Below are positions 6,910 through 29,115 of a stretch of DNA of 64,000 nucleotides, one piece after another. Source of the DNA: Streptomyces sp. NBC_01198 (GTDB lineage: Bacteria; Actinomycetota; Actinomycetes; Streptomycetales; Streptomycetaceae); NCBI RefSeq assembly GCF_036010485.1, contig NZ_CP108568.1, forward strand, positions 496,001 to 560,000. Direction: 5' to 3'. The position numbers and the translations under genes are program-made. The notes under the pieces were generated by a model, which saw nothing but the letters and a program-made list of their open reading frames with translations, had not been told where the DNA came from and made no database searches. How positions within the stretch are numbered: the stretch's first letter is position 1; every line of letters starts with the position of its first letter.

Positions 6910-7250
6910 CCGTACTGCCCTTCCTCGCGGCCGGCTGGATCCTCCTGGTCGGCGTCTACGGCATGGTGACCAGCCGCAACCTGGTGCACGCGGTCGGCTG
7001 CCTGGCCGTGGCGCAGTCCTCGACGTACGTCCTGCTGCTGGGCATCGGGTACCGGCACGGCGGGACCGCACCGGTGTTCTCCGACATCCCGGTCGGCACC
7101 CCCGTGGTCGACCCGGTCGTCCAGGCGCTGGTCCTCACCGACATCGTGGTCGGGGCGACCGTGACGGCGCTGCTGCTCAGCCTGGTCATCCAGATCCGCA
7201 AGCGCACCGGGACGGTGGATCCCGAGGCGCTCAGCGAGCTGAAGGGCTGA
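6906..7250 (+). CDS. mrpC: Mrp-type antiporter subunit C (NuoK-like)
   Basis: A 114-residue protein with three helices, homologous in design to NuoK of complex I. The final region DPVVQALVLTDIVVGATVTALLLSL is the conserved third helix; the helix-1 and helix-2 boundary GMVTSRNLVHAVGCLAVAQSS is also typical. ATG 6906 overlaps the mrpB stop by ATGA. Some MrpC proteins have a longer cytoplasmic tail; this one ends in a short charged tail. Confidence 0.85.
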   Translation: MTVLPFLAAGWILLVGVYGMVTSRNLVHAVGCLAVAQSSTYVLLLGIGYRHGGTAPVFSDIPVGTPVVDPVVQALVLTDIVVGATVTALLLSLVIQIRKRTGTVDPEALSELKG

Positions 7251-7259
7251 GGGGCGCAC

Positions 7260-9134
7260 GTGGCGTATCCCGGCTGGCAGCCGGCCGACCTGCTGCCGCT
7301 CGCCGTCGCGATCCCGCTGTTCGGCGCGGCCTTCCTGGTGCTGGCCGGGCGGGTGCTGCCGCGTACCGCCCTGGACGCGGTGGCGACCGCCTTCGCGGCC
7401 GGCACCGTCGCCGAACTCGCCCTGCTGTGGGACCGGGCGGGGGACGCGGACGGCGGCCGGGTGGTGTCCTGGGCCGGCGGCTGGACCCCGCTGCACGGCC
7501 GCGGGATCGGCATCGTGCTGGTCGGCGACCGGCTCGGCGTGGGGCTCGCACTGCTCGTCGCGGCCCTGGTGGCCGCCGTACTCGTCTACTCCTGGCGGTA
7601 CTTCGACGAACCGCCCGCACGGCACCGCGGCGTCTTCCCCGCGCTGCTGCTGCTCTTCGAGGCCGGCATGTGCGGATTCGCGCTGACCGGCGACCTGTTC
7701 AACGCGTTCGTCTTCTTCGAGCTGATGGGCGTGGTGGCCTACGCGCTGACCGGCTTCCGCATCGAGGACCCGCGCTCCCTGCACGGCGCGCTGACCTTCG
7801 GCGTGGTCAACTCCCTTGCCGCGTACGCTTCGCTGCTCGGCATCGGCCTGCTCTACGCGCGCACCGGCGAGCTGGGCATGGCGCAGATCGGCGGCGCGCT
7901 GGCCGGCCACCGCACCGACGCGCTCACCGTCACCGCGTTCGTCCTGGTGATGGCGGGCCTGCTGGTGAAGTCCGCGACCGTGCCCTTCCACTTCTGGCTG
8001 CCCGACGCGCACGCGGTGGCACCCACGCCGGTCTGCATGCTGATGTCGGGGGTGATGGTCGAACTCGGGGTGTACGGCATCGCCCGGGTGTACCTGACGG
8101 TCTTCGCCGGTCCCGGCGGCATCCCTGCCCCGGCCTACACCCACACGCTGGCCGCGCTCGGCGTACTGACCGCACTGGTCGGCGCCACCATGTGCTGGAA
8201 GCAGCGGCACCTCAAGCGCCTGCTGGCCTTCTCGACCATCGGCCACACCGGCCTGTGGCTGCTCGGCCTGAGCCTGCTCGACCCGGCGGCGACCGCGGGC
8301 ACCGCCCTCTACGTCGCCGGGCACGCGGGGGTGAAGGCGGCGCTGTTCGGCCTGACCGGCGTCCTGCTCGACCGGCACGGCTCGGTCGACGAACTCGGCC
8401 TGCACGGCACGGAACGCGGCTCGCCGTGGACCGGCGCGCTCTACGTGGCCTGCGGGCTGGCGCTGGCGGGGCTGCCGCCGTTCGGCGTCGGGCTGGGCAA
8501 GGCGGTGGCCGAGCACGCGGCGGGCGAGCACGCCGCCTGGCTGCCCGCGGTCTACGTCGTGGTGTCGGCGCTGACCGGCGGCGCCGTGCTGCGCGCCGGG
8601 CTGCGCGTCTTCTTCGGGGCGGGGCCCGCTCCGGACTGCGGCCACTCCGACGTGGAGACCGGCGGGGAGGGCGAGGAGTCGGAGGTCCGCGGCCCCCGGC
8701 GGGCGGTGCCGGGCGCGATGACCGCGGTGCCGGCGGCGCTGCTGTGCGGGGCGTTCGTGGTCGGGGTGTGGCCGGCCGTCGGGCGCGCTGTGGCATCGGC
8801 GGCGGTGGCCTTCCAGGACCGGGCCGGCTACCTCGCCCAGGTAGAAGGCCTGCCGGTGCCCGGGCAGGCCGCGCGGCCGCCGGACGCGGCCTGGACCGGG
8901 GCGGGGGCCGGGCTGGGCGTGCTGTCGGTGGCGCTCGCCGTGGCCTTCGCCGCCACCGCCCTGCGCCTGGCCGCCTTCCGGCTGCCGAGCCCGCTGGCGG
9001 CCGTGGCCCGCGGCGTCGACCGCCGGCTGATCGTGCCACTGCGCCGGCTGCACTCGGGCCACCTCGGCGACTACGTGGCCTGGCTGACCGTCGGCCTGGC
9101 CGGCCTGCTGATCGCCCTGGGGGCGCAGGTCTAG
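7260..9134 (+). CDS. mrpD: Mrp-type antiporter subunit D, proton-pumping NuoN/MrpD-like
   Basis: A 624-residue protein with about 14-16 transmembrane helices. The proton-channel motifs are present: an acidic residue in [17 protein letters not shown] (helix 5 Glu) and the lysine helix [21 protein letters not shown]. It is longer than typical MrpD (about 500) because of a C-terminal extension with extra helices. It is the only antiporter-like large subunit in the cluster; no full MrpA is encoded. GTG 7260 follows GAGGGG. It ends the operon. Confidence 0.85.
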
Positions 9135-10081: not shown

Positions 10082-10217
10082 CGGGCCGTCATGGAGGGGT
10101 AACCCGATGACGCGGGGGTACGCGCCCGGCACGGCGGGCCCCGGTACCCGGTGACCGCCGCCCTGTTCACGGAGCCCGCCGGACTCGCGCCGGGGCTCCC
10201 CTCACGGAAGGCGCCCC

Positions 10218-10460
10218 ATGGTCGCAGCAGCGCAGAACACCACGGTCCTGGCCGGTTCCTTCGGCGCCGGGTGGGCCGTCGCCGTCGGCGTGGTCCTGGT
10301 GGCCCTGATCATCGCCGCCTTCTGGTGGGGTTCCCGCCGCGCCTCGCGCCGGCCCGTACCGCCGCAGGAGCCGCAGCCCGGCTCCGACTCGTGGCACACG
10401 CCGGCCGAGAGCGAGACCCACCACTCCCCCGCCTCCTCCTCCCCCGACGAGCGGCCGTAG
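10218..10460 (+). CDS. Small single-pass membrane protein (DUF6479-like)
   Basis: An 80-residue protein: one hydrophobic helix (AGWAVAVGVVLVALIIAAFWWG, about 17-38), then an Arg-rich positive patch and a Pro/Ser/Glu-rich tail, so the C-terminus should be inside the cell. GGAAGG precedes ATG 10218. The design resembles the short streptomycete proteins grouped as DUF6479; the function is not known. Confidence 0.6.
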   Translation: MVAAAQNTTVLAGSFGAGWAVAVGVVLVALIIAAFWWGSRRASRRPVPPQEPQPGSDSWHTPAESETHHSPASSSPDERP

Positions 10461-10468
10461 CCGGCCCG

Positions 10469-10510
10469 GCACCCCGGCCGCCGCCCGCCCGGGGGCGGCG
10501 GCCGGGGTGC
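10469..10510. terminator. Bidirectional hairpin terminator
   Basis: A perfect 18-base-pair GC stem with a six-base loop lies between two convergent genes (small membrane protein and beta-helix lipoprotein). Confidence 0.75.
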
Positions 10511-10525
10511 GGAGCGGACCCGGGG

Positions 10526-11746: not shown

Positions 11747-11908
11747 CGCCCGATGCTATGCGCAGGCCTGGTTTTCGGTCAGGTGCGGGTCCGCTCCCGG
11801 ACACCCCCGGGCGCCCCGACCGGGCCCCGTCGGCTGCTCGCGGGGCCACCGGACCCGGGAGCGCGATCACCCGCAGATGTCCGGAAACCAGTGCCCACTA
11901 TCGCAATC

Positions 11909-11925
11909 TGCGCGAAATTCGCACA
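11909..11925. promoter_or_regulatory. Operator-like palindrome upstream of the thiopeptide operon
   Basis: TG-C-GCGAA-A-TTCGC-A-CA has perfect GCGAA/TTCGC arms around a central A and matching TG/CA ends. It lies about 280 bases before the precursor gene in the most AT-rich part of the gap. No regulator gene is in the cluster, so an external factor is presumed. Confidence 0.45.
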
Positions 11926-12045
11926 TTATCACGCGCGGATCTGCCACGATTCGAGCACGGAGGGGGAGTCGCCAGCCGCGACGCTTCGTATGCCGGCATC
12001 ACCGCCACTGGCCGCGTCCGCGAGTGGACCCGACCACGGGGGACG

Positions 12046-12146
12046 CGGTGAACAGCAGCCACCTGGAACCGACGTGTTGCGATCCGCTCCGCTGGAGTGA
12101 GGGGACCTCACTCCCGGCAGCCCGGGGGCACGCGAGCTGTTCACCG
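12046..12146 (+). promoter_or_regulatory. Structured 5' leader of the thiopeptide precursor mRNA
   Basis: CGGTGAACAGC (12046-12056) pairs perfectly over 11 bases with GCTGTTCACCG (12136-12146). The enclosed loop holds a second perfect hairpin, GGAGTGAGG-GGA-CCTCACTCC (12094-12114). The element ends 40 bases before the precursor ATG. It could be a cis-acting RNA or an mRNA-stabilising leader; no known riboswitch class is recognised. Confidence 0.45.
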
Positions 12147-12186
12147 TCCGTTTGTGTCCAACTCGTCTTTACCAGGGAGTGGTTCG

Positions 12187-12351
12187 ATGGATGAAGAACT
12201 CGCATTCGACCTCGACGGCCTGGCCGCCGACGTCTTCAGCATCACCGGGGAGGACGTCGAGGTGGAGTCGCTCACCGGCGCCCACGCGATGACCGAGACG
12301 GCCGCGTCCTGTTCGTGCTGGTCGGGCAACGGAAGCTGCGTGTCCCTGTAA
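12187..12351 (+). CDS. Thiopeptide precursor peptide
   Basis: A 54-residue peptide. The acidic leader (about 1-40) contains FDLDGLAADVF and VEVESLTGAHAMTET, which aligns with thiomuracin-type leaders (LTAGHGMTE...GAS at the core junction). The core after AA is SCSCWSGNGSCVSL. By analogy Cys2, Cys4 and Cys11 become thiazoles, and Ser1 and Ser10 become dehydroalanines joined into a pyridine, giving a 26-membered ring; Ser3, Ser6 and Ser13 are further dehydration sites. AGGGAG lies eight bases before ATG 12187. It is the first gene of an operon encoding all enzymes needed for these steps. The exact leader cleavage point is inferred from homology only. Confidence 0.9.
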   Translation: MDEELAFDLDGLAADVFSITGEDVEVESLTGAHAMTETAASCSCWSGNGSCVSL

Positions 12352-12376
12352 CCCCGACCAGGGAAGGAGCCGCGCC

Positions 12377-14263
12377 GTGGCGGACGGCGTATCCCATGTC
12401 ATGGCGCGGCTCCGGCCGGACGTCTTCCTGGTACCCGCTCCGGACGGCGCCAGGTTCCTCACCAACCGCGGTGGCGAGTCGCTCGGCGGCCCCACCATCC
12501 ACCGCTGGCTCAGCGTGCTCGCCCCGTACCTCGACGGCAGCACCCCGCTGTCCGAACTGGTCGGCCGGCTGCCAGCCGGGCAGCGGGAGATGGTGGAGCG
12601 GATCGTCGCCGCGCTGATCGACCGCGGGCTGGTCCGTGACGGCGGGGAACCCGCAGGACGGGCCGAGACCGGCTACCTCGACGCCTTCCTGCCCGACGCC
12701 GGGCACGCGCTCGCCACCTACCGGCAGGCCCGCGCCCTCGCTGTCGGATCGGGGTCGATCCTCGGTGAACTCCTGCGGCTGCTGGCCCGCTCGGGCATGA
12801 CCGCCGCCCGACAGCTGCCGACCGGCGCCGGTGCGGCGGAAATCATGACGCTGAAGGACGCGCTCGACCGCGGCGCCGACCTCGTCGTGCACGTCCCCGG
12901 CGGTCCTGCCGACCTGCCGGCGGAGGACGTCGACCGCCTGTGCCAGTGCGCCGGTGTGCCGGTGGTGCGCGCGGTCAGGCGCGGCGGCGAGCTGTGGTTC
13001 CACGCGGGCACCGGCGGGACGGGGGGCCTGAGCCGGCTCGACCGGTGGTCGCGCGGCCTCGGGCGACCGGCTTCGGGCAGCGACGCGCTGCCGCCCGAGG
13101 TGGTGGCGCTGGCCGCCGGGTGGCTCGGGACAGCGGCGTTGCGGCTGCTCACCGGGGTCGCGGAGGCGGCGGAGGCCGACACGATGGACTGCCTGGACAT
13201 CGCCACGCTCACGTCCACCACCCACCGGTTCCTGCCGGTGCCACTCCCGCCGTGGGAGATGAGACCCGGTTTCATGGCCCAGCGAAGCGGCGCAGCCCGG
13301 TCGGTCACCGAGAAGGTGGCCCGGCTGCGGGCCGCACCGGCGCTGACCGTGGACGTGCTCGACGCGACAGGAGCCAGGCTGCTCGACCCGCGGCTGGGTG
13401 TGCTCGGGGAGCTGTCCGAGCGCGACTTCGCACAGCTCCCGCTCAATGTCGCCGTCGCCACCGCGGCCGGCGTGCGCGACCCGCTGACGGGCGCAGGCAC
13501 CACCGTCGAGCAGGCCCGGTGGCGGGCGGTGCTCGCCGCGCTCGCGGCGTACGGGGTGTCGGGCACGGACATCAGCCGGCTGCCGGCCCGCCAGGCCTGG
13601 GGTGTCCAGCTCGCCGACGACCGCGCCCGGTCGGTTGACCCGGCGGACGTCTTCACCCTGGCGCAGGACAGCGGGCCCGGCCGGGACCGCTTCGCCACCG
13701 CCGGCGGCGAAGCGGTGGGCGCGGCGGCCGCTCTCAGCTGGCAGGAGGCCGTCACGGCCGGGCTGCTCGACCACTGCGCCCGGCTGACCGCTGCCAGGCC
13801 GGGGCCCACGGTCCGTGTCGACCTGGACCTGCTCGCGCGCCGGAGCGGCCAGGAAGCCGCGCACTGCCTGCGGATGGTCCGCATCCTCGGGGTGCCGCTC
13901 GCCGTCCACGACGTCACCGGCTCCCTGCGCGTGCCGACGCTGGCGTTCCTGACCGGCTCCAGGACCGTCGCCTACGTCAGCGCGCTGCGGCCCGCCGGCG
14001 CGCTGGCCGCCGGGCTGCGCGCGATCCTGCTCGACGAGCAGGCCCGCCGCCACCACCAGCCCGCCTACGCGCCGCCGCCGGTACCGCAGCCGGATCCCGG
14101 CGAAGCAGCCACGGGCGTGGCGGCGGTGCCGTGCACCGTGCCGCAGGCGGTGGCGGCGCTGCGGGCGCGCGGGCTCGACCCGGTCGCCGTCCCGCTTGAC
14201 CACGACTCCGAGGTGTCGCGCATCATGCCCTTCGTCGTCCGGGTGGTGCTCGCGCATGCCTGA
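12377..14263 (+). CDS. Thiopeptide RRE-containing cyclodehydratase partner (TbtF/LazD-like)
   Basis: A 628-residue protein. Residues about 10-90 look like a RiPP recognition element: a winged-helix fold with LNGGESL-like strands and VERIVAALIDRGLV at its end, which binds the precursor leader. The remainder is Ala/Arg-rich and resembles the ThiF/ocin-like partner that presents the leader to the YcaO enzyme. GGGAAGGAG lies seven bases before GTG 12377. The end overlaps the YcaO start by eight bases, a sign of translational coupling and of a complex between the two. It is not itself expected to be catalytic. Confidence 0.85.
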   Translation: MADGVSHVMARLRPDVFLVPAPDGARFLTNRGGESLGGPTIHRWLSVLAPYLDGSTPLSELVGRLPAGQREMVERIVAALIDRGLVRDGGEPAGRAETGYLDAFLPDAGHALATYRQARALAVGSGSILGELLRLLARSGMTAARQLPTGAGAAEIMTLKDALDRGADLVVHVPGGPADLPAEDVDRLCQCAGVPVVRAVRRGGELWFHAGTGGTGGLSRLDRWSRGLGRPASGSDALPPEVVALAAGWLGTAALRLLTGVAEAAEADTMDCLDIATLTSTTHRFLPVPLPPWEMRPGFMAQRSGAARSVTEKVARLRAAPALTVDVLDATGARLLDPRLGVLGELSERDFAQLPLNVAVATAAGVRDPLTGAGTTVEQARWRAVLAALAAYGVSGTDISRLPARQAWGVQLADDRARSVDPADVFTLAQDSGPGRDRFATAGGEAVGAAAALSWQEAVTAGLLDHCARLTAARPGPTVRVDLDLLARRSGQEAAHCLRMVRILGVPLAVHDVTGSLRVPTLAFLTGSRTVAYVSALRPAGALAAGLRAILLDEQARRHHQPAYAPPPVPQPDPGEAATGVAAVPCTVPQAVAALRARGLDPVAVPLDHDSEVSRIMPFVVRVVLAHA

Positions 14264-16193
14264 GGCGGGTGCCACAGCCGGGCCGTGGCGGCTGGCCGGC
14301 AGCGGCGTGCTGCACGACGCGGTCGAGCGCCTGCTGCCGCCGGGCGGCGGGCAGGGCGGGGCGGTGGTGGCCGTCAGCGACGGCTGGGATCCGGCGCTGA
14401 TCACGGCGAGCGCGCGCGCCGCGGCGGCGGACGGCATGCCCTTCCTCGGGGTGCGGGTGGAGTTCGGCCAGGTCCTCGTCGGCCCGACCGTGCTGCCGGG
14501 GCGCGCGGGGTGCACCGGCTGCCTGGACGCCAGGCGGGCCGCGGCCGACCCGGCGGGCGCGGCCGACCGGGCCGCGCTGCTCGCGGCGCGCGGCGACCGG
14601 CCCGCACCGCCGTCCACCTGGCTGACGGCCTTCGCGGTGCCCGCGGTGGCCGGCGTGGTGGCCGCCGAACTTCGTGCCCTGGCCCAAGGCCGGACTCCGC
14701 GTACTGTCGGCGCGGTCCTGGTGGTGGAGTTGGACCGGCTGACGACCGGCGTCCACCCCTTCCTGCCGGACCCGTCGTGCGCCACCTGCGCACCGGCGGG
14801 CGACCCGGCCGGCGCCCGGCGGGCCGCCGCGGTCGGGCTCACCGCCCGGCCCAAGCCGGACCCTTCGGTGCTGCGGGCCACCGATCTGGTCTCCCGGGCG
14901 GCGGAGTTGGAGCGCGTGTACGTCGACGGCACGGCCGGTCTCGTGCGCGCGGTACGCGAACGGGACGCCTGCGGCCTGCCGGTGGCGTACGCGTACACCG
15001 GGCTGCCCGGGGTGGGACGCCCCGAGCCGGGTATCGGGCGCGGCGCGGACCGGCGCTCCGCCCGGGCCGCCGCGCTGCTGGAGGCGGTCGAACGCCGGGC
15101 GGGGACCGTGCCGTCGGGGCGGTGGCCGGTCGAGCGGGCGGCGTACGCCGACGTGCGCGGGCACGCCGTCGATCCGCGGACCCTCGGCCTGCCCGGCGGC
15201 GCCGGCGAGGCGGCACAGCTCGACCCCCGCGAGGAGAGGGCCTGGGTGTGGGGGTTCTCCTTCGGCCGGGGCGAGCCGGTCCTGGTCCCCGCGGAGCACG
15301 CCTACTTCGGCCCGCTGCCCGGCGCCGCCGGCCGGTCGCGCGTCCACGAGACCTCCAACGGCTGCGCGCTGGGCGGCTGTTACGAGGAAGCCGTGCTCCA
15401 CGGCCTGCTGGAGGTCGCCGAGCGTGACGCGTTCCTGCTCACCTGGTACGCCCGGATGCCGGTGCCGCGCGTCGCGATCGGGTCGGCGAGGTCCAGCCGG
15501 GTCCGGCTGCTCGCCGACCGCGTCGACCACGCCCACGGTTACGAGGTGCTGGCCTTCGACACCTCCCTGGAGCACGGCGTCCCCTCGGTCGCGCTGCTCG
15601 CCGTCGACCGCTCCACCGACCCGCTGCGCCCCGCCGTGATGTGCGCCGCGGCGGCCCATCCCGACCCGGAGCACGCCTGCTGGTCGGCGCTGACCGAACT
15701 CGCCCTGCTGGTGGCGCACCTGCCCGTGCGGTACCCGGCGGAGCGGGCCAGGGCCGCCGCCATGGCGGCCGACAGCGACCTGGTGACCGCGATGACCGAC
15801 CACGAACTGCTCTACGGCCATCGCGACACCCTGCCCCGCTGGGACTTCCTGCTCGACCGCGGCAGCGCCGGGCAGCGCACCTTCGAGGACTCCTTCACCG
15901 GGCGTCCGGCGCCCGCTGCCGACCTGCGCGACGACCTGACCGGGCTGCTTGACCGCTACCGCCGGGCCGGTCTAGACGTGGTCGCGGTGGACCAGACCGG
16001 CCCGGAACAGCGCGCGGCCGGCCTGTCCTCGGTCCGGGTGATCGTGCCGGGCACGCTCCCGATGACCTTCGGCCACCGCAACCGCCGGCTCACCGGGCTG
16101 CCCCGGCTGCGGACCGTGCCGATGCTGCTCGGGCACCGCGGTGACCCGCTGCCCGAGGACGAGATCAGCCCCTACCCGCACCCGTTCCCGTAG
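14256..16193 (+). CDS. YcaO cyclodehydratase (thiazoline formation; TbtG/LazE-like)
   Basis: A 645-residue protein. The N-terminal part carries two CxxC pairs (Cys86/89 and Cys175/178) likely to hold zinc, as in the E1-like part of fused cyclodehydratases. From about 200 on it is a YcaO domain: SARAAALLEAVER at 268-280 is the SxxxAxxEAxER ATP motif, SNGCALGG at 367-374 and HGLLEVAERD at 382-391 supply the other Mg/ATP ligands. The C-terminus ends PYPHPFP, a PxPxP motif that marks azoline-forming YcaO proteins. It would convert core cysteines to thiazolines with ATP. Confidence 0.92.
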   Translation: MPEAGATAGPWRLAGSGVLHDAVERLLPPGGGQGGAVVAVSDGWDPALITASARAAAADGMPFLGVRVEFGQVLVGPTVLPGRAGCTGCLDARRAAADPAGAADRAALLAARGDRPAPPSTWLTAFAVPAVAGVVAAELRALAQGRTPRTVGAVLVVELDRLTTGVHPFLPDPSCATCAPAGDPAGARRAAAVGLTARPKPDPSVLRATDLVSRAAELERVYVDGTAGLVRAVRERDACGLPVAYAYTGLPGVGRPEPGIGRGADRRSARAAALLEAVERRAGTVPSGRWPVERAAYADVRGHAVDPRTLGLPGGAGEAAQLDPREERAWVWGFSFGRGEPVLVPAEHAYFGPLPGAAGRSRVHETSNGCALGGCYEEAVLHGLLEVAERDAFLLTWYARMPVPRVAIGSARSSRVRLLADRVDHAHGYEVLAFDTSLEHGVPSVALLAVDRSTDPLRPAVMCAAAAHPDPEHACWSALTELALLVAHLPVRYPAERARAAAMAADSDLVTAMTDHELLYGHRDTLPRWDFLLDRGSAGQRTFEDSFTGRPAPAADLRDDLTGLLDRYRRAGLDVVAVDQTGPEQRAAGLSSVRVIVPGTLPMTFGHRNRRLTGLPRLRTVPMLLGHRGDPLPEDEISPYPHPFP

Positions 16194-16202
16194 GAGGCGC
16201 GG

Positions 16203-18809
16203 ATGCCCCGGCTCGACCCGCTCACGGCCACCAGCACCGTCCTTGAGGTCGCCGCGCCCTTCGTGGTGCGGATCGCCGGCCTGCCGGCCTCCGCGCTCAC
16301 CGGCCTGTCGTCGGCGCCGCTGCGGGAGCTGCTGGCACGAACCCTGGCCGAGGAGCGGGCCGTCGCCGGCGAGGGCCGGGCGCTCGCCGACGACCTCGGG
16401 GCCCTCATCGGCGAGCCGGGCGATCCGGCACTCAAACCCCTCCTGGTCGGGCTGCGCCGCTCCCTCTTCCGCGGCCGGGCGCCCCGCGGCTCCGAGTGGT
16501 CCACCGCCGTGCGCGCCGCGCTGCCCGCGGGCACCGCAGACCGGATCGGCGCCTGGACGGAGCGGCTCGCCCGGCGCGACCGGCTCGCCGCCGGGCTGCC
16601 GGGCACGCTGGAGCGGGAGACCGAGCGCACCCTGGGGCTGCTGATCGGCACCGCCGCCCGCCCGGAGTTCCGGCACGGCCTCGTCCAGTCCAGCCCCACC
16701 CTCTCGGCGCAGTGGGAGAAGTGGCTCGCGCACCCGGTCGGCCAGCCGCCCCGCAAGGTGCTGGTCCGGCTGGTCAGATACGTCTCCCGGGCCGCCGCCA
16801 AGACCAGCCCGAACAGCACCTTCACCGCGATCGGGACCGGCGCGTGGACCTCCGGCGGGGACGGCGTCCTGGTCCTCGCGCCGCTGCCGCCCGCCCGCTG
16901 CCTGATCGAACCGGACGGCACGCTGATGGCGGACCTGGCCGCCGCCGTCGCCGCCGACGCCGAGCTGCGGCCCGCGCTGCGGGTGCGCGCCAATCCCAGC
17001 CTCACCCGGGTGGGCGACCGGGTGATGGTGCTGGGCCGCCGCCCCCTGGAGGACATCGCCTCGGTCGCCGCGCTGCCCGGCGTGGAGGCGTGCCTGCGGG
17101 CGCTGGACGGCGACCGGCCCGCGCTCGGCGAGCTGTACGCGCGGCTCGGCGCGGGCACGGACGGCGGCAAGGTACGCGCCTTCGTCGACCGGCTGGCCGA
17201 ACTCGGCGTCATCGAGCCGCATCTGCCGGTGGACGACCAGGAGCGGGACAAGTTCGGCGCCCTGGCACGCTGGCTGCGGCAGCACGGCGGTGCCCGCTGG
17301 GCGCCGGCCGCCGCGGCGTCCGCCCGGCTGTCCGCCGCCCTCACCGCGCCGGGGGACGCCGGTGCGGTGGCCGGCCACCGGGCGCGGCTGCGCGCGGTCG
17401 GGGCCGCGGTCACCGAGCTGCGGGCGAGCGCCGGGCTGGTGCCAGACCCCGAGGGACGGTCGGCCTCGCTGCACGAATACGCCGTCTTCCCCGGGCCCGT
17501 CGCCACGGCCGCGCTGCCCGCCTGGCAGGACCCGCTGGCGAGCCTGGAGCTGATCCGCCGCTGGATGGCGCCGCACGACACCGCCCTCCCGCTGCGGCTC
17601 GCCCTCGGCGCGTACGGGAACAGCCGCTACCCGGCCGGGGATCCGGTGCCCTTCCTGGTCTTCCACCGGGCGCTGCTCGCCGATCTCGCCGGTGGCGGCG
17701 GCGGCCCGCTGGACGACCTGCGGACGCTGCTCGCCCTCGGCGGCACCGGCAGGGGCGCCGCCACCTGGCGGTCGGCCGCGCTGCGGGACCTGGCCGCGCT
17801 GCGGGCCCGCTCGGTGGCCGCCCTGCTCGGGACGCCGCCTGGCGCCGACGGTGTCGCGCGGCCGGACCCGGACCTGCCGGCCGGGGACGCCGGCCTGCCG
17901 TCCTGGGCGGTCCCGGCCGGCTCGGTCGCCTGGTTCGTCCAGCCGGACGGGCCGCGGCTGGTGCTCAACTGCGCGATGAGCGGCCATGGCAGGGGCCGCG
18001 ACCGCTCCCTCTACCTCATCGCCCACGGCGGCGGCGACCTCCCGCCCACCGCGGCGCCGCCCACGGAGGCGCTGGTGGCCGACTCCTCCGGCGACTTCGG
18101 GCACAGCCTGAACCTGCGGCGGGCGGACGGCGGCCACGAGCTCGACTACCCCTTCACCGTCCACTCCCCCGGACACCGCCCGGTGACCGCCCTGCGGGAC
18201 CTCGGCGTCGGGCGGGACCCGGACACCGGGCTGCTCGTGCTGCGGCACCTCGGCAGCGGGCGGCGCGTGGTCCCGGCGCACCGCGGGATGGTCGTGGAGA
18301 CCGGCCTGCCCCCGGCGCTGCAACTGCTCTGCCGCGGCCTGGGCGCCAGTCCGGGCTGGCTGCTGCGCCCTGACGACCTGCTGGCGCCGCCGGTCCTGGA
18401 CGCCGCGGTCAGCGCGGCCCCCAGGATCGAGGTCGGCGCCGTCGTGCTGCGCCGCGCCACCTGGACGGTGCCCGCCGCGCTGGTCCCGCGCCGGACGGCC
18501 GGCGAGCCGGCGGCGTCGCTGCTGCTGCGGCTGCACCGCTGGCTGGCCGAACACCGCATCCCGCAGCGGTGCTTCGTGCGGACCAGCACGCCGGGCGGCG
18601 CCGGCTGGGCGGCGGCCGGCCCCGCCAAGGCCCGCAAGCCGCTCTACGTCGATTTCGCGAGCCCCTGGCTGGTCGCGCTGTTCGAGCGGCTGACGTCTGA
18701 GGCCACCGACCCGGTGGCGTTCACCGAAGCGCTGCCGTCGGTCGGGGACGGGCCAGGTGAGCGGCGTACCGCCGAAGTCGTGGTCGAGACGGCGGCGGTG
18801 ACGCGGTGA
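16203..18809 (+). CDS. tRNA-Glu-dependent glutamylating dehydratase (LanB N-terminal domain; TbtB/LazB-like)
   Basis: An 868-residue protein of the Lant_dehydr_N family. The signature AAAKTSPNSTFTAIGTG is at about residues 197-213. In this family glutamate is transferred from Glu-tRNA to serine side chains of the precursor, the first half of dehydroalanine formation. The elimination domain is absent and is encoded by the next gene, the split arrangement of thiopeptides. AGGAGG at 16192-16197 overlaps the YcaO stop codon and is five bases from ATG. It overlaps the next gene by four bases. Confidence 0.9.
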   Translation: MPRLDPLTATSTVLEVAAPFVVRIAGLPASALTGLSSAPLRELLARTLAEERAVAGEGRALADDLGALIGEPGDPALKPLLVGLRRSLFRGRAPRGSEWSTAVRAALPAGTADRIGAWTERLARRDRLAAGLPGTLERETERTLGLLIGTAARPEFRHGLVQSSPTLSAQWEKWLAHPVGQPPRKVLVRLVRYVSRAAAKTSPNSTFTAIGTGAWTSGGDGVLVLAPLPPARCLIEPDGTLMADLAAAVAADAELRPALRVRANPSLTRVGDRVMVLGRRPLEDIASVAALPGVEACLRALDGDRPALGELYARLGAGTDGGKVRAFVDRLAELGVIEPHLPVDDQERDKFGALARWLRQHGGARWAPAAAASARLSAALTAPGDAGAVAGHRARLRAVGAAVTELRASAGLVPDPEGRSASLHEYAVFPGPVATAALPAWQDPLASLELIRRWMAPHDTALPLRLALGAYGNSRYPAGDPVPFLVFHRALLADLAGGGGGPLDDLRTLLALGGTGRGAATWRSAALRDLAALRARSVAALLGTPPGADGVARPDPDLPAGDAGLPSWAVPAGSVAWFVQPDGPRLVLNCAMSGHGRGRDRSLYLIAHGGGDLPPTAAPPTEALVADSSGDFGHSLNLRRADGGHELDYPFTVHSPGHRPVTALRDLGVGRDPDTGLLVLRHLGSGRRVVPAHRGMVVETGLPPALQLLCRGLGASPGWLLRPDDLLAPPVLDAAVSAAPRIEVGAVVLRRATWTVPAALVPRRTAGEPAASLLLRLHRWLAEHRIPQRCFVRTSTPGGAGWAAAGPAKARKPLYVDFASPWLVALFERLTSEATDPVAFTEALPSVGDGPGERRTAEVVVETAAVTR

Positions 18810-19633
18810 GCTGGGTGAGCCTGCACGCCTTCCACCACGGTGACCTCGACGTGCTGCTGCTCGACGGGGTCCGCCCGCTGGTGGACGACCTGCGGCGGGC
18901 AGCACTGATCGACGGCTTCTTCTACCTGCGCTACTGGGACGGCGGGCCGCACCTGCGCGTCCGCCTCCGTACCGCGCGCGACGCCGAGGTCACCGGCATC
19001 GCCCTGGGCGCGCTGCGCGGCTACCTGCGGGACCACCCGGCGGCCGACCGCCCGCAGCCCGGCTACCCGGCGCAGTCCGCCCGGCTGGCGGCGGCGGAGG
19101 GCGTCACCGACCACCTGCGCACCCCCGAGCCCAACAACACCGTGCGGGCCGTCGCCTACCGGCCCGAGACCGGCCGCTACGGCGAGGGCGTCTCGCTGGC
19201 GGCCGCGGAGCGGCACTTCGGCGAGTCCAGCCGGATCGCGCTGGGCCTGATCGCCGCGGGGGCGGACCGCGGGCAGCGGCAGATCGCGGCCTTCGCCGCG
19301 CTCGTCCTCGCCTGGCAGGGCCTGCCCCGGCCCCCCGTCCCGCCGGCGGACCCGGCGACGGAAGCCGGCGACGACGAGGCCTACCGGGGCAACGTGACGC
19401 TGCTGCACGACGTGGCGGCCGCGGCGGCGCGGATCGCCGCCGGCACCTCACCGCTGCCGGACGACGGCGCCCTGACGGCCTGGTGGCGGACGGTCAGCAG
19501 CCTGCCGGAGCCCGGGGTGCGCGACATCTGCGCGCACCTCTTCTGCAACCGGCTGGGCGTCGGACCGCGCGAGGAACACCGGCTGCGCCGGCTGGCGTAC
19601 CGCACCGTGACCTGTGAGAGCGAGGACCGATGA
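18806..19633 (+). CDS. Glutamate elimination enzyme, SpaB_C type (TbtC-like)
   Basis: A 275-residue protein of the SpaB_C/thiopeptide-type biosynthesis domain. It begins WVSLHAFHHGDLDVLLLDGVRPLV and contains DGFFYLRYWDGGPHLRVRLR, the family hallmark (F-x-R-Y-x-x-x-G-P-H-L-R-x-R). The N-x-x-R and R residues of the domain bind the glutamyl group. It should remove glutamate to give dehydroalanine. It is the shorter of two SpaB_C-type proteins in the operon; the longer one (19630) fits the pyridine synthase better. GTG 18806 overlaps the dehydratase stop. Confidence 0.82.
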   Translation: MSWVSLHAFHHGDLDVLLLDGVRPLVDDLRRAALIDGFFYLRYWDGGPHLRVRLRTARDAEVTGIALGALRGYLRDHPAADRPQPGYPAQSARLAAAEGVTDHLRTPEPNNTVRAVAYRPETGRYGEGVSLAAAERHFGESSRIALGLIAAGADRGQRQIAAFAALVLAWQGLPRPPVPPADPATEAGDDEAYRGNVTLLHDVAAAAARIAAGTSPLPDDGALTAWWRTVSSLPEPGVRDICAHLFCNRLGVGPREEHRLRRLAYRTVTCESEDR

Positions 19634-20715
19634 CCGAACCGGCAGGCTGGCACACCCTGCGCGTCGACCACTTCGCGGACGCGGGCCGCAGCGACCTGAT
19701 CCTGGACGCGGTACGCCCGCTGTTCGGCGAGCTGTCGGGACAGGTCGGCGCCGCCTACTTCCTCCAGCACTGGCGGCGCGGCCCCCACCTGCGCCTGAAC
19801 GTGCTGACGACACCCGAGGTGCTGGACGCGGTCGTGCTGCCCGCGGCGGACCGCACGGTCGGCGCCCACCTGCGGGAGCGCCCGTCGCGGTCAGCGCTGG
19901 ACGTCCGCGCCCTGCTGCCCCGGCACCGCGAGCTGGCGGCGGTCGAGCTGGACGACCGCCCGCTGGGGCCGCCGAGCACCGACAACACCCTGAGCACCGA
20001 GCCCTACGACTCCCGGGCCGGCGTCCTGGGCGGCCCCGCGGCGGCGGCCCTGATCGCCGGCTTCTACGTGGCCGCCAACCCGGCCGCCTTCAGCGCACTG
20101 GAGGCGGCACGGGCCGAACGGCAGCGGCTGTGGGCCGCGTTCGACCTGATGGCCGCGACCGCGCACCTCTTCTCCGGCGGCGGTGTGTCCCGCGGCTACG
20201 TGTCCTTCCGCGCCCACGCGGACACCCACCTCACCCGCACCGCCGACCAGCGGCGTACCCGGGCCGCCTGGGACCGGCTGCACCGGGCCGCGGCTCCCGC
20301 GCTGGCCGGCCGGCTCCGCCAGGTGGTCACCGCGGTCGACAGCTGCGGCGGCCCGCCCCACGTCAGGGACTGGGCGGCCGCGCTGCGCACCGTACGGGAA
20401 CCGGCCCTCGCGCTCGCCGACGCAGGCGGGCTGACGATGGACCACCCCTCCCGCCCGGCCCGCGGCAGCACGCCCTTCCTGCGCGAGCTGCTGGCCAACG
20501 AGGACTTCCAGCTGCGGATGAAGACCTCCGTCCCCTTCCGGCGCTACCGGCTTCTGCTGAACCTGCTCTACCTCCAGCTCACCAGGATCGGGATCCGCCC
20601 CGACGAGCGCTATCTGCTGTGCCACCTGGTCGCGGGCACCGTCGAGGACGCCTACGGGGTGGACGCGGCCACCGTGGTCCGCGAGACGTCGGCCGCGCTG
20701 CGGGAGCAGCGGTGA
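19630..20715 (+). CDS. [4+2] cycloaddition pyridine synthase (TbtD/LazC-like)
   Basis: A 361-residue protein distantly related to the elimination enzyme: WHTLRVDHFADAGRSDLILDAVRPLF and AAYFLQHWRRGPHLRLNVLT repeat the SpaB_C start. It is longer, with a C-terminal helical region (RMKTSVPFRRYRLLLNLLYLQLTRIGIRPDERYLLCHLVA) typical of thiopeptide pyridine synthases. The role is to join two dehydroalanines and expel the leader, closing the macrocycle. It overlaps both neighbours by four bases. Which of the two SpaB_C proteins does elimination and which does cyclisation is inferred from length. Confidence 0.8.
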   Translation: MTEPAGWHTLRVDHFADAGRSDLILDAVRPLFGELSGQVGAAYFLQHWRRGPHLRLNVLTTPEVLDAVVLPAADRTVGAHLRERPSRSALDVRALLPRHRELAAVELDDRPLGPPSTDNTLSTEPYDSRAGVLGGPAAAALIAGFYVAANPAAFSALEAARAERQRLWAAFDLMAATAHLFSGGGVSRGYVSFRAHADTHLTRTADQRRTRAAWDRLHRAAAPALAGRLRQVVTAVDSCGGPPHVRDWAAALRTVREPALALADAGGLTMDHPSRPARGSTPFLRELLANEDFQLRMKTSVPFRRYRLLLNLLYLQLTRIGIRPDERYLLCHLVAGTVEDAYGVDAATVVRETSAALREQR

Positions 20716-22070
20716 CCGGCGCCGTCGAGCGGCGCATGGCGCTACGCCCCGGGGTGCGGCTGGTGACCGGCAGGGACTCGGGGATCTCACTGCTCGACGG
20801 CGGACGGCACAGCGAGGCCGTCGGCGTGCTGACCCAGCCGCAGAAAGCGGTGCTGCGGGCGCTCGCGGCGGGCGAGTGCGCGCAGGCCGACCTGGACGTG
20901 CTCGCCGGGCCGGCGGCCGGGCCGCTGGTGCGGCGGCTGCACGCCGGCGGCTGGCTCACCGTCCACTACGCCTTCGGCGGCCGGCGCCTGGTGACGGTAC
21001 GGCCGCTGGGACCGCTGGGACCCCCCACTGCGCATCGCGGGCCGCCCGCGCACGCCCCCGCCGAGGCCCGGCTGTCGCGGTTCGCCGTGCTGCGCGGGCA
21101 CGGCGGCGCCCTGGTCCTGGAGTCGCCGCTGAGCCGTGCGGTCTTCGAGGTGCACAGCCCCGAGGCGATGGCCCTGCTGCACGCGCTGGCCGGCGGTCCC
21201 CCGCCGGCGGACCTGGCCGCGCCGGTACGCACCGGTCTCCTCGCCCTGTTGGCCCGTTACGGCTTCCTGGACGACGCCGCCGCCGAGGACCCGCCGGACC
21301 TGGCCACCGAGCAGTGGAGCCCGCACGAGCTGTGGTTCCACCGCGGCAGCCGCGCGGGCCACCACGACCTGCCCTACGGGGCCACCGGCTGGGCGGAGGG
21401 CCGCTTCCCGCCGCTGCCTGCGCGCCGCCCGCCCTGGCCGGGCGCTCCCGTACAGCTGCCCGTCCCCGAGGCCGGCGCCCCGGCCATGCCGCTGGGCGCG
21501 GCGCTGCGCGCGCGGCGCTCGCTGCGGACGGCGGACGAGCGGGCGCCGCTGACCGTCGCCGGGCTCGGCGAGTTCCTGTACCTGAGCGCCGCGGCGGACA
21601 CCGGTGGCCCCGGCGGGGCGCTGCGCGCCAGCCCCTCGGGCGGCGGCCTGCACGCCCTTGAGCTGTACCCGGTGGTGCGCACGGTCGACGGCCTGCCCGG
21701 CGGGATGTACCACTACGACCCCTACGGCCACCTGCTGGAACCGGTCCCGGCGCGGCCGGCGACCGTCCGCAGGCTGCTCGCCGACGCCACCGCGGCGACC
21801 GGCGGCGCAGCGCCGCAGGTGCTGCTCGTGGTCTCGGCCCGCTTCGGCCGGGTGATGTGGAAGTACCGCAGCATGGCCTACGCGCTCGTCCTGAAGGACC
21901 TGGGCGCGCTGCTGCAGACGATGTATCTGGTGGCCACCGCGACCGGCCTGGCCCCGTGCGCCCTGGGCACCGGCGACGCGGACCTGTTCGCGCTGGCCAC
22001 CGGGCTCGACCCGCTGGCCGAGTCGAGCGTCGGCGAGTTCGCCCTCTCCAGCCGGCCGGACCCCGGCTGA
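20712..22070 (+). CDS. SagB-type azoline dehydrogenase, FMN-dependent (TbtE-like)
   Basis: A 452-residue protein. About 200 N-terminal residues form the docking region seen in actinobacterial TOMM dehydrogenases, then a nitroreductase-fold domain: MPLGAALRARRSLR, ASPSGGGLHALELYPVV and VMWKYRSMAYALVLKDLGALLQT. These match FMN binding and the active site of SagB-type oxidases, which turn thiazolines into thiazoles. GTG 20712 overlaps the pyridine synthase stop. It is the last gene of the operon, facing a convergent NIPSNAP-like gene. Confidence 0.88.
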   Translation: MTGAVERRMALRPGVRLVTGRDSGISLLDGGRHSEAVGVLTQPQKAVLRALAAGECAQADLDVLAGPAAGPLVRRLHAGGWLTVHYAFGGRRLVTVRPLGPLGPPTAHRGPPAHAPAEARLSRFAVLRGHGGALVLESPLSRAVFEVHSPEAMALLHALAGGPPPADLAAPVRTGLLALLARYGFLDDAAAEDPPDLATEQWSPHELWFHRGSRAGHHDLPYGATGWAEGRFPPLPARRPPWPGAPVQLPVPEAGAPAMPLGAALRARRSLRTADERAPLTVAGLGEFLYLSAAADTGGPGGALRASPSGGGLHALELYPVVRTVDGLPGGMYHYDPYGHLLEPVPARPATVRRLLADATAATGGAAPQVLLVVSARFGRVMWKYRSMAYALVLKDLGALLQTMYLVATATGLAPCALGTGDADLFALATGLDPLAESSVGEFALSSRPDPG

Positions 22071-22080
22071 GCCGGCGCCG

Positions 22081-22401
22081 TCAGTCCTGCGGGCCGGCCG
22101 GCAGCAGGGGGCGCATGAAGGTGCGCTCGTAGCGCAGCACGCAGGCGCTGTCGTCGCGGACGGCGTCGGCGGCGATGAACTCCGGGTCCTGGCCGAAGAG
22201 CGAGCGGTACTCCTCGTAGGCGGCCAGCGAGGGGAAGCTGAAGAGCGCGAGGGCCTTGTCGCTGGCCCCCTCGGACGGCAGGAAGTAGCCGTGGTGCGTC
22301 CCGCCCTGCCGCTGCACCAGGTCCATCCAGCGGCGCGCGAACTCCTCGAAAGCGGCGATCTGCGACGGGTCGATGGTGTAGTCGACGACACAGGTGATCA
22401 T
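22081..22401 (-). CDS. NIPSNAP/ABM-fold small protein
   Basis: A 106-residue soluble protein starting MITCVVDYTIDPSQIAAFEEFARRWMDLVQRQGG and ending in the dimeric alpha/beta barrel pattern (SFPSLAAYEEYRSLFGQDPEF, then RYERTFMRPL). This matches NIPSNAP-family ferredoxin-like folds. Its role is not clear and there is no sign that it belongs to the thiopeptide pathway, since it is on the other strand. Confidence 0.8.
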   Translation of the reverse strand: MITCVVDYTIDPSQIAAFEEFARRWMDLVQRQGGTHHGYFLPSEGASDKALALFSFPSLAAYEEYRSLFGQDPEFIAADAVRDDSACVLRYERTFMRPLLPAGPQD

Positions 22402-22530
22402 CGGGGGTCCCTTCTTGCGGGCGTCGCGGGCGTCGCACGCGCGGTGGCCGGTCCGGGTCGGGTCCGGCGGATCTGCACCCTACGGCGTCGGCGGGCGCGC
22501 CCGGCGCCCGGGCCGGCCCCCCGCACGGTC

Positions 22531-23175
22531 TCACCGGGGCGTCAGGGAGCGGAAGCTGTGCCCGAGTTCGGGCCCGAGACCGTGGTAGTGCCTGAAGTTG
22601 TAGATCAGCGGGCTCCACGCGGCCGGGTCGACGTGCTGGGTGCCGGGGACGACGATCCGCGGGTCGGCGTGCACCTTGAGCACCCGGGCCTCGACGATGA
22701 GGAACTCCCCCGAGGCGTCGGCCCGGACCGCCGCGGCCCGGGCCTCCAGCTGGAGCGGGCACCCGGCGACCCGGGGCGGCCGCACCAGCTCCGCGGGCTG
22801 CGGCCGCAGGCCGGCGGCGGCGAACTTGTCCGGTTCGAAGCGGAAGGTGCCGCGCTTGTGCGCGGGGACCGGATTGCGGCCGGTCAACGGTGCCAGCCGC
22901 TCCACCGCGGGCCACTGCTCGGGCCCGGGAAGGCTGACGACGAGGTCGGGGCGGCTGCGCAGGTTGGCCGCCGTCTGCCCTTCACCGCCCAGCCCGAGGA
23001 CGACCACCTGGCCGAGCGCCCAGGCCGACGACATCGGCGCCAGGTTGAACGAGCCGTCCTCGTTCTCCGTCGAGAGCAGCACGACCGGCGTCCCGAAATA
23101 CAGGATGCTCGGTGTGATGGCCACATGGCCTGCCGGGGTGTCCGCGGGCCTGCTGCTGAGCTTCGCGCTGTCCAT
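22531..23175 (-). CDS. Flavin reductase-like protein (FMN-binding split barrel)
   Basis: A 214-residue soluble protein with the flavin-reductase-like fold: ITPSILYFGTPVVLLSTENEDGSFNLAPMSSAWALGQVVVLGLG carries the FMN-binding segment of this family, here with P instead of the usual first-strand residue. The C-terminal strand SPLIYNFRHYHGLGPELGHSF resembles flavin-nucleotide contacts of the family. Start chosen at ATG 23175; a GTG 33 bases upstream is possible. Partner oxygenase genes are not visible nearby. Confidence 0.78.
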   Translation of the reverse strand: MDSAKLSSRPADTPAGHVAITPSILYFGTPVVLLSTENEDGSFNLAPMSSAWALGQVVVLGLGGEGQTAANLRSRPDLVVSLPGPEQWPAVERLAPLTGRNPVPAHKRGTFRFEPDKFAAAGLRPQPAELVRPPRVAGCPLQLEARAAAVRADASGEFLIVEARVLKVHADPRIVVPGTQHVDPAAWSPLIYNFRHYHGLGPELGHSFRSLTPR

Positions 23176-23256
23176 GACGCCGACCGTAGGGCCGCGACGT
23201 TTCGGCACCCGCCGAAGGATCCCCCGGCCGCCGGCTCCGGGGGCGCCGGCGCGGTG

Positions 23257-24291
23257 TCAGCGCCGGGACGGCAGGAGCTCCGGGTGCCGGGCCGCCGACG
23301 CGCGGGCGGCGCCTGCCGCGGCCAGCAGCCAGGCGGCCACCGAGATCCACAGCAGTACGGCGCCGAGGCCGTGCAGCCAGCGGGTGCCCGTCGCGTCGCT
23401 GGTGAACAGGGTGGCCTCCGCGGTCATGCCGAGCGGGAAGACGGTCGACCAGCGGCGCAGGTCGTAGTGCGGCCGCGGGTAGGCGATCTCGGCGAGGGCG
23501 AGGACGGCGCACCAGGCCAGGTCGAGTGACAGCAGCACGTAGGCGCCGGTGCGCAGGGCCGAGTGGGCGCCGCCGGTCCACACCGGCGACGTGCTGAGCT
23601 TGGCGGTGGTCAGCGCGGCGATGGCGATCGCGCCCCCGGAGATCCACTGGTCCCCCGCCCCGACGGTGACCTGCCGGAAGCCGAAGCGGGGCAGCGCCGC
23701 CAGGTAGAGCACGATGCCCAGGGCGCAGGCGGCCAGCGCCGCCGACGCCAGCCACTCGGAGTGCTCGGCGAGCGAGAGGGTGATCGCGAGCACCGCCAGG
23801 CTCTCGGCCGCGACGCAGACAAGGAAGACCACGCCCGGCATCCGGCGCTTCCAGTGCCGCAGAACGGAGACCAGCAGCCACGGGCAGACGGCGGCTGACA
23901 GCGCCAGCAGGATCTCGGCGACCGTCTGCCAGCCGAACAGCGACAGCCGCGTCCCCAGCACGCAGGACGCCGCGACCGCGGTCAGTCCCGGCGGGCTGGC
24001 GGCAACGGCCTGCCAGCCCGCCCGGTCCCAGCCGAGCCGCAGCGCGAAGGCCGCCGCCAGCACCACCCACACCAGGGCGGTGACCGCGAGGGCGGCGCCG
24101 GACAGCGACGCGTGGCCGAGCCGGCCAAGGCCCACCGAGATGATCCCGGTCGCCATCACCACGGCCCCGGCGCCCGGCGATGTGCCGCGCAGCATCTCCA
24201 GCACCTGCGCGACGGTGGGCCGGGATCGCGCTCCGCTCCCGGCCGGCGCGTCGGAAGTGCCGGGGCTGGGACGGCCGGGAGGTGAGGTCAC
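23257..24291 (-). CDS. TDT-family transporter (TehA/C4-dicarboxylate/sulfite type)
   Basis: A membrane protein of about 344 residues with around ten helices. The first helix region SPGAGAVVMATGIISVGLG is the TDT family hallmark, and the tail keeps the repeated hydrophobic pattern. The family exports tellurite, malate or sulfite by a voltage-dependent channel; the substrate here cannot be assigned. GTG 24291 has no obvious ribosome-binding site; a first helix starting further in (ATG 24195) is an alternative. It is on the same strand as the flavin reductase, 81 bases away. Confidence 0.75.
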   Translation of the reverse strand: MTSPPGRPSPGTSDAPAGSGARSRPTVAQVLEMLRGTSPGAGAVVMATGIISVGLGRLGHASLSGAALAVTALVWVVLAAAFALRLGWDRAGWQAVAASPPGLTAVAASCVLGTRLSLFGWQTVAEILLALSAAVCPWLLVSVLRHWKRRMPGVVFLVCVAAESLAVLAITLSLAEHSEWLASAALAACALGIVLYLAALPRFGFRQVTVGAGDQWISGGAIAIAALTTAKLSTSPVWTGGAHSALRTGAYVLLSLDLAWCAVLALAEIAYPRPHYDLRRWSTVFPLGMTAEATLFTSDATGTRWLHGLGAVLLWISVAAWLLAAAGAARASAARHPELLPSRR

Positions 24292-24453
24292 CTGTTCATC
24301 GCACCGCACGGCCCGCCGGCCCGCCACCGCGCCGGGCCGAAGGAACGACCCGGACACCCGGCCCGCGGCGGTCCCGGGGCCCTGGTCGCCGCCTCGCAAC
24401 CGACGCTGCTTCCGGCCACGCCGGGCGGAGGGACCGCGTACGGCCTCGGCGGC

Positions 24454-24468
24454 CCGTACTGAGTACGG
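24454..24468. promoter_or_regulatory. 15-base palindrome upstream of the UbiA operon
   Basis: CCGTACT-G-AGTACGG is a perfect palindrome about 90 bases before the first start codon of the two-gene UbiA operon and about 160 bases before the TDT gene on the other strand. It could be an operator for either. Confidence 0.45.
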
Positions 24469-24556
24469 ATGCTCATGCGCCGCCGCCGTCCGCCCGGGAA
24501 TACTTCGTGCCGGACGGACGCAGGGTCCGGCACGTCGACGAGCACCGGGAGGCGTC

Positions 24557-24748
24557 ATGCCCGACTATCTTCCGCCGGGGAAGTTCGACCCGCGGCCGCC
24601 CCGGGGAGGCCGCGGCCGGCGGGAGCGGTCCGTGTGGACGGCGATCGGCAGCCTGCTGGCCATCGTGCTGGCGCTGACCGGGCTGGTGGTCGTCGGGGCC
24701 ATGGTGATGCTCGCCGTGGGCATGAACACCATGGGGTCGAACAAATGA
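24557..24748 (+). CDS. Small single-pass membrane protein upstream of UbiA
   Basis: A 63-residue peptide: a Pro/Arg-rich cytoplasmic start (PDYLPPGKFDPRPPRGGRGRR) and one hydrophobic helix (about 28-55). GGGAGG precedes the ATG and the stop overlaps the UbiA start by ATGA, so the two are coupled. No family recognised. It may be an accessory of the prenyltransferase. Confidence 0.6.
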   Translation: MPDYLPPGKFDPRPPRGGRGRRERSVWTAIGSLLAIVLALTGLVVVGAMVMLAVGMNTMGSNK

Positions 24749-28698: not shown

Positions 28699-29115
28699 GG
28701 GATGCTCCTTGGGGTGGGGGGAGGGGCGTCCGTACCGTACTGAGCACCCTGTCGCTCCGCAAGCTTCCGCGTGCACAAAGAAAATTTTGCACAGTTCATT
28801 GGAAGCAATGGGCGTCAGGCCGGGACACATCGGATGACCATGGGACATCCGCGCCGGAGTTTCCGGCACGCCGAATTTGCGGGTGCTTGAATGTCGCGGG
28901 TGGAACCGCCCGGCGCTTTCGGTTTCGCTTCGACCCCGGCGTTCACGTCCGCACGGGAAGCCGCCAGTTGTCACGTGGATTCCCACGGGCACTAATACGG
29001 CTCATTCAACTCACCCGGTGCAGGCCGGGCCAACCTGCTTACGGCGCAAGGCCGCGTGCCCTAGTCTCAGCCCCCGAGTGCTCGTCGAACGACTTCAGCA
29101 GGGAGACCCACCACC
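28699..29115. other. Intergenic region between glucanase-like and membrane protein
   Basis: About 417 bases without a gene. AT-richer DNA at 28771-28810 has two inverted repeats: GTGCACAAA/TTTTGCAC around GAAAA, with one bulged base, and CATTG-GAAG-CAATG at 28797-28810. These lie about 75-110 bases upstream of the glucanase gene and could be its operator. A TAGTCT at 29062-29067 may be the -10 box of the membrane-protein gene. Confidence 0.4.

Follow-up and report, generated by a model that had tools for sequence, protein, structure and literature searches.

A putative thiopeptide operon of the thiomuracin/GE37468 leader type within an inserted segment of the Streptomyces sp. NBC_01198 genome

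In thiomuracin-type thiopeptide clusters the genes lie in the order A-B-C-D-E-F-G. Work on the Tbt, lactazole (Laz) and Micromonospora rosaria pyritide (Mro) systems places the formation of azoles first and that of dehydroalanine (Dha) second, after which the pyridine synthase performs the [4+2] closure and ejects the leader (PMC9247985; PMC7210931; papers are cited here and below for those parts of their text that were available). The lactazole cluster is a compact minimal one of ~10 kb with a core of low Cys content; its LazF fuses the elimination domain with the dehydrogenase, and in the product the ring has 32 members and Trp2 is left unmodified (PMC7210931). Pyritides A1 and A2 are made by B, C and D enzymes, with the leader ejected by D, and the available text gives the Mro system no azole genes or Cys, and rings of 14 and 17 members (PMC9247985). 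Here we analyse a window of 64,000 nucleotides, positions 496001-560000 of the 7.92-Mb single-contig genome of Streptomyces sp. NBC_01198, in which seven genes form one operon on the + strand (12188-22070) in the order A-F-G-B-C-D-E. From its sequence the operon very probably holds a full thiopeptide (azole-containing pyritide) pathway, has a leader of thiomuracin/GE37468 type, and arrived in a 12.7-kb insertion.

The precursor and all six enzymes have family or structure matches (Table 1), and the strength of those of D, B, F and A leaves no room for chance, so that the full minimal gene set of thiopeptide/pyritide type claimed in an earlier, sequence-only reading of this DNA is confirmed. 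That reading had also described overlaps of 4 to 8 bases between most genes, and four of the six junctions do overlap, F/G by 8 bases and B/C, C/D and D/E by 4 each; there is a gap of 25 bases between A and F and of 9 between G and B. The start of A lies one base downstream of that given earlier. G is read from the ATG at 14256 (645 amino acids; the start codon is inferred), the mechanical open reading frame (ORF) beginning at the TTG at 14196, and its C-terminus is EISPYPHPFP, ending at 16193, which includes the PYPHPFP terminus reported before. A decayed or silent cluster giving no product is unlikely. Among 35 genomes of the genus a D more than 41% identical occurs only in that of the window, a point in favour of decay, but the frames of all seven genes are intact with overlapping junctions, codon-position bias is strong in the five genes scored (F, G, B, C and D), and the precursor has a relative (P0001, on a contig of 1,805 bases) that is 94% identical, all of which argues against decay.

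Table 1. Genes of the operon and features of the inserted segment (positions within the window)
Feature	Position	Strand	Basis or remark
A: precursor peptide, 54 amino acids	12188..12351	+	NF033399 and PF19409 models
F: ocin-ThiF-like leader-binding protein, N-terminal RRE	12377..14263	+	PbtF chain 8t19 match
G: YcaO cyclodehydratase with partial C domain, C-terminal PYPHPFP	14256..16193	+	TIGR03604, TIGR03882, PF02624
B: putative Glu-tRNA-dependent glutamylation protein, TbtB type	16203..18809	+	PF04738, 6ec7
C: putative glutamate-elimination protein, HLRVR (RxR) motif retained, 275 amino acids	18806..19633	+	PF14028, TIGR03891
D: pyridine synthase ([4+2] macrocyclase, TbtD/PbtD type), HLRLN replaces RxR	19630..20715	+	NF045556, TbtD 5wa3
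E: SagB-type flavin mononucleotide (FMN) azoline dehydrogenase, ThcOx domain, 452 amino acids	20712..22070	+	TIGR03605, PF22767, PF00881, CyaGox 5lq4
Inserted segment, 12.7 kb: operon and three convergent genes	11764..24459		empty site in two congeners
NIPSNAP protein	22081-22401	-	Pfam
Flavin reductase-like protein	22531-23208	-	Pfam
SLAC1-family (TDT) transporter	23257-24558	-	Pfam; may reach ~100 bases beyond the border or have a start codon deeper inside

The precursor A comprises the leader MDEELAFDLDGLAADVFSITGEDVEVESLTGAHAMTETAA and the core SCSCWSGNGSCVSL, the probable border between them being drawn from the conserved Ser1. It passes the model NF033399 (thiomuracin/GE37468 family) with 43.3 bits against a cut-off of 29, and PF19409 with 26.9 bits against 23.5, and so has a thiopeptide leader together with a Ser1...Ser-Cys core. 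A protein search among 5.8 billion proteins gave 16 relatives (P0001-P0016), which are probably environmental to judge from their source labels (P0001 shows no source). Ser1, Cys4 and the sequence Gly-Ser-Cys (GSC) of the core are invariant in all 17 precursors, that of the window included, while the spacing between them varies; the Ser of GSC is at position 10 in ten, 11 in three, 13 in two and 15 in two. Because Ser1 and the GSC Ser are invariant while their spacing changes, they are the likely closing residues. A ring closed at position n has 3n-4 members, i.e. 26, 29, 35 or 41 for positions 10, 11, 13 and 15, and this rule matches the published rings of pyritides A1 (Ser1/Ser6, 14 members) and A2 (Ser1/Ser7, 17 members) (PMC9247985). 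Closure between Ser1 and Ser10 is thus predicted here, giving a 26-membered ring, with rings of 29, 35 or 41 members in relatives. The four relatives with long cores (P0013-P0016) have predicted rings of 35 or 41 members; the cores of P0013 and P0014 read SCPCIGG(W/G)EWYCSGSC..., for which a 41-membered ring is predicted. Such a ring would exceed the natural thiopeptide sizes found in the available text of PMC3917276 (26, 29 and 35) and that of lactazole (32).

It is very unlikely that the same pathway closes the ring between Ser1 and another Ser (Ser13), or gives mixed ring sizes. A tail Ser in the context V/I/L-S-A/L/F/G is found in 13 of the 17 precursors, but it is absent from P0013-P0016, whereas the GSC Ser is universal; moreover a closing Ser followed by Cys is the usual thiopeptide pattern, which counts against Ser13. 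It is also in favour of such variation that pyritide enzymes tolerate many ring sizes in vitro (PMC9247985).

The core had been described as unlike those of known thiopeptides. A scan of named genomes with the precursor alignment found 594 stretches that fit the pattern, none of which was confirmed, and for this reason a second scan was made with the alignment of the pyridine synthase D. Among 84,980 species genomes 85 stretches encode a relative of D; 80 of these were kept and 79 loci examined, referred to below as the related loci. Adding six loci from a precursor search of the family and two of the genus gave 87 loci, in which ORFs of 30-220 amino acids were scanned with the precursor profile. 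Precursor-like ORFs were found in 38 of the 79 and in six further loci, and SCSCW occurs in none of these 46 ORFs (44 loci); the other 41 of the 79 have no precursor candidate and are therefore uninformative on the core. The profile matched six of 393 other genomes of the family, with much lower scores. The string SCSCWSG was not found in the literature searched, outside which lie subscription papers, e.g. the 508-cluster survey cited in PMC7210931, and supplements that may list the core. The description holds in that no cluster examined from a named record has SCSCW, but the core is not unique, since SCSCWSGNGSC is present exactly in eight of the 16 relatives (P0001-P0006, P0009 and P0012).

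The azole-forming set is complete, i.e. a YcaO protein, its leader-binding partner and a dehydrogenase. F as a single protein matches 8t19 with an E-value of 2.4e-14 over residues 10-88; this 86-residue chain, listed as PbtF, is presumably the RRE. A profile of 24 F proteins matched 8t19 at 1.3e-31, YcaO proteins also being touched, in the C-terminal half of the profile. F-type proteins serve a truncated fused cyclodehydratase by binding the leader (PMC4603692). G scores 308 bits with TIGR03604, 104 with TIGR03882 and 260 with PF02624, and matches the structures of TruD (4bs9, E-value 3e-24) and LynD (1e-21); a PxPxP C-terminus is found in 52 of 59 G matches of the related loci. E scores 148.6 bits with TIGR03605, matches PF22767 and PF00881 and the structure of CyaGox (5lq4, E-value 8e-49), and contains the Lys-Tyr pair that is typical of azoline dehydrogenases.

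B scores 110 bits with PF04738 and matches 6ec7 (listed as a lantibiotic dehydratase domain protein), which we take to be TbtB, with an E-value of 2e-113 over residues 6-853. C scores 124 bits with PF14028 and 86 with TIGR03891, and only 74.9 with NF045556 (cut-off 325). By these matches, and the RxR motif of C, the two are assigned as a split Glu-tRNA-dependent dehydratase, the glutamylation and elimination proteins foreseen in the sequence-only reading. D is also a member of PF14028, but passes NF045556 with 391.9 bits and matches TbtD (5wa3, E-value 7e-68) and also PbtD, and is thus of the pyridine-forming [4+2] type. Work on NisB indicates that the two arginines of RxR serve glutamate elimination. 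The motif HxRxR is present in the C of the window and in 55 of 70 C matches of the related loci (12 lack the motif stretch and three differ), and in none of the 79 D matches (one lacks the stretch); the D of the window reads HLRLN. By this split of the motif, C of the window belongs with the elimination proteins and D with the pyridine synthases. It is highly improbable that D does not cyclise and the product is a linear azole/dehydroalanine peptide like goadsporin. In favour of that reading, goadsporin clusters likewise carry split dehydratases and YcaO (PMC4603692), and elsewhere in the same genome there is a set with no pyridine synthase above cut-off. Against it stand the score of D (392 against 325 bits), its matches to TbtD and PbtD, and the lack in the operon of the leader peptidase that a linear product would be expected to need.

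From the characterised homologues we infer the following reactions and product for the thiopeptide operon. F would bind the leader and present the core to G, which would cyclodehydrate Cys2, Cys4 and Cys11, and E would oxidise the resulting thiazolines to thiazoles. B would glutamylate Ser1 and Ser10 using Glu-tRNA, and perhaps also Ser3, Ser6 or Ser13, with C eliminating the glutamate to leave dehydroalanine. D would then carry out a formal [4+2] cycloaddition between Dha1 and Dha10, forming the pyridine and releasing the leader as an amide. The product should be a macrocycle of 26 members, with two of the thiazoles in the ring and Gly9 in the place of an azole before the closing Ser; the third thiazole would lie in a thiazolyl-Val-Ser/Dha-Leu tail. 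With three thiazoles and the Ser1/Ser10 pyridine its calculated [M+H]+ is 1258.386 if no other Dha is formed, and 1240.376, 1222.365 or 1204.355 for one, two or three more; the leader amide would be of 4168.90 Da, or 4037.86 Da if Met1 is lost.

Some observations weigh against this scheme. The choice of the second closing Ser rests on conservation, with Ser13 as the alternative, and any of Ser3, Ser6 and Ser13 may be dehydrated as far as the sequence shows. F scores 43.2 bits with TIGR03693, far under the cut-off of 561.9, though its match to PbtF is direct, and it matched no Pfam family in a Pfam scan of the window protein.

The sequence-only reading had pointed to the lack of a leader peptidase and a transporter. 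No peptidase is present in the operon, but because pyridine synthases expel the leader none is expected here, and this absence is normal. There is likewise no transporter within the operon; the SLAC1-family (TDT) gene lies outside it, on the opposite strand of the same inserted segment.

According to a 2014 review, thiopeptides with rings of 26 members bind to the L11 region, and those with 29 to EF-Tu (PMC3917276). The ring predicted here contains few azoles, and relatives switch between 26 and 29 members by one residue, with a core that is otherwise much the same; for these reasons neither target can be assumed. We note that lactazole, which likewise has little Cys, Ser and Thr, is described in the available text as lacking antibacterial activity (PMC7210931). 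Self-resistance through EF-Tu was considered, but of the two EF-Tu genes over cut-off in the genome neither lies within the window, and the clue was dropped. The second of these genes, at G000:C1:7632894-7634066, is divergent (555 bits, compared with 731 for the main one).

The operon resembles the Tbt/Pbt systems (thiomuracin/GE37468/GE2270) in its NF033399 leader, separate B and C, TbtD/PbtD-type D, F beside a fused YcaO, and separate SagB dehydrogenase. It differs in gene order, in a predicted ring of 26 rather than 29 members, and in the Gly before the closing Ser. The thiomuracin core has six Cys, compared with three here. Lactazole, like the present core, has a non-azole residue before the closing Ser. 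The likeness to the Laz cluster extends to its small size and low Cys content, but C and E are separate genes here, and residue 2 of the core is Cys. Pyritide A1, like this core, has Gly before the closing Ser (PMC9247985), and the Mro D (locus L040) is 38% identical to that of the window; yet the presence of three Cys and of F, G and E means that this is not a pyritide in the narrow sense, i.e. of the azole-free Mro type (PMC9247985).

Among the related loci the order B-C-D-E-F-G was found in 17 of 79, F-G-E-B-C-D in another 17 and C-D-E-F-G-B in one, the other 44 missing at least one match. The order F-G-B-C-D-E was found in none of the 79, of which 35 gave all six enzymes. These orders are approximate, being taken from tblastn matches of at least 45 bits in loci that end at 10 kb, where weak matches (to E especially) may be other genes. 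Of the earlier view that lactazole-like logic is combined here with thiomuracin-type gene splitting, the small size and the thiomuracin-like enzyme layout stand; the layout is not lactazole-like, since C and E are unfused, and the order is not that of the 17 loci with B-C-D-E-F-G.

In a protein search with D, 8000 candidates were scored and 46 matched with an E-value of 1e-20 or better, one being the window itself. Twenty-eight proteins without an organism name (P0018-P0045) are 50-65% identical to D of the window. By comparison its identity to the related loci of the species genomes is 32-43%, the best among the 79 being 43%. Outside its own genome, D found matches at 1e-40 in two of 34 genomes of the genus (40-41% identical), 11 of 390 of the order (40-43%) and eight of 393 of the class (35-43%), whereas a sample of 395 from the phylum gave none. 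The samples share genomes, and for order, class and phylum five candidates were scored per genome, so misses are possible. The genus includes Streptomyces sp. DvalAA-14, as locus L099 of the genus is 100% identical over 4119 bases to L078, the locus recorded for that strain. A tree of 125 D proteins, made by a quick method and with several long branches elsewhere, unites D of the window with P0018-P0045 in a 29-row clade (SH-aLRT 100) that includes none of the 79 species-genome rows; the nearest rows to the window are P0018, P0020 and P0019. Two contigs carry both a precursor and a D protein, one of 287,126 bases with P0002 and P0020 and the other, 94,641 bases long, with P0016 and P0041, suggesting linkage of the two genes in those relatives too. 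Taking this clade with the precursors P0001-P0016, the core is the same or similar in most, and four cores are longer. On sequence grounds the operon belongs to a branch for which the data searched contain no member that is named or characterised.

In the congeners G132 and G059 the match to the window breaks off after 11763 and resumes at 24459/24460, with 85-88% identity and with 49 and 42 bases between; neither the operon genes nor the three convergent genes were found in the corresponding stretches. Because of this empty site, gain of the 12.7-kb segment by this strain seems likely; its loss from both relatives is possible but less simple. The upstream match is itself broken at 10087-10523, where ~430 bases of the window have no counterpart in G132 and G059, so the spot has changed more than once; a small ORF that encodes a membrane-spanning segment apparently lies in it. 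G043, a third congener, matches only 6747-9132 and 30219-31945, and has no bearing on the insertion. The GC content of the island (76.7%, compared with 75.1% upstream and 72.8% downstream) says little on its origin. No repeat has copies at both island ends, among 20 of 27 direct families and 25 of 28 inverted pairs, and there is no integrase or transposase among the nine island genes scanned with Pfam. The three convergent genes had no match in the related loci at an E-value of 1e-6, and are for this reason not counted as biosynthetic. Beside the empty site, a gene for a large protein with alpha-1,3-glucanase domain D1, CBM6 and F5/8 type C domains (25879-28992, - strand) is conserved in two congeners.

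The genome has other clusters for ribosomally synthesised and post-translationally modified peptides (RiPPs). The region G000:C1:1774000-1788000 (L139, L140) contains three YcaO matches, a split LanB-type dehydratase (PF04738 145 bits, PF14028 148 bits) and a SagB dehydrogenase. Its PF14028 protein is far under the pyridine-synthase cut-off (75 against 325 bits), so the region may encode a linear azole peptide of goadsporin type. The label dehydrazole was rejected for it, since dehydrazoles use LanM-type dehydratases in the available text of PMC10676384. At G000:C1:4544629-4552789 (L141:8630-16790) a TIGR03891 (thiopep_ocin) protein is followed by an FxLD-system methyltransferase domain protein (450 bits, cut-off 320); by these matches this is an FxLD-type RiPP cluster.

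The pathway proposed for the operon is an ordinary one of known chemistry, and what is new is the branch. The operon, a complete pathway within a genome of one contig, opens to experiment a branch otherwise seen in these data only in contigs without organism names, and the predicted product masses make the claim directly testable. Because the core is low in sulfur and ring length varies among the relatives, the enzymes might prove tolerant by nature and be of use in macrocycle synthesis. We suggest tentatively, as something that may well prove wrong, that this operon is the sole genome-level representative, in the data searched, of a thiopeptide subfamily whose single leader type and single enzyme lineage natively give rings of 26, 29, 35 and 41 members by lengthening only the stretch from Ser1 to GSC. 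If that is true, ring size in the subfamily would not follow a fixed ribosome or EF-Tu target.

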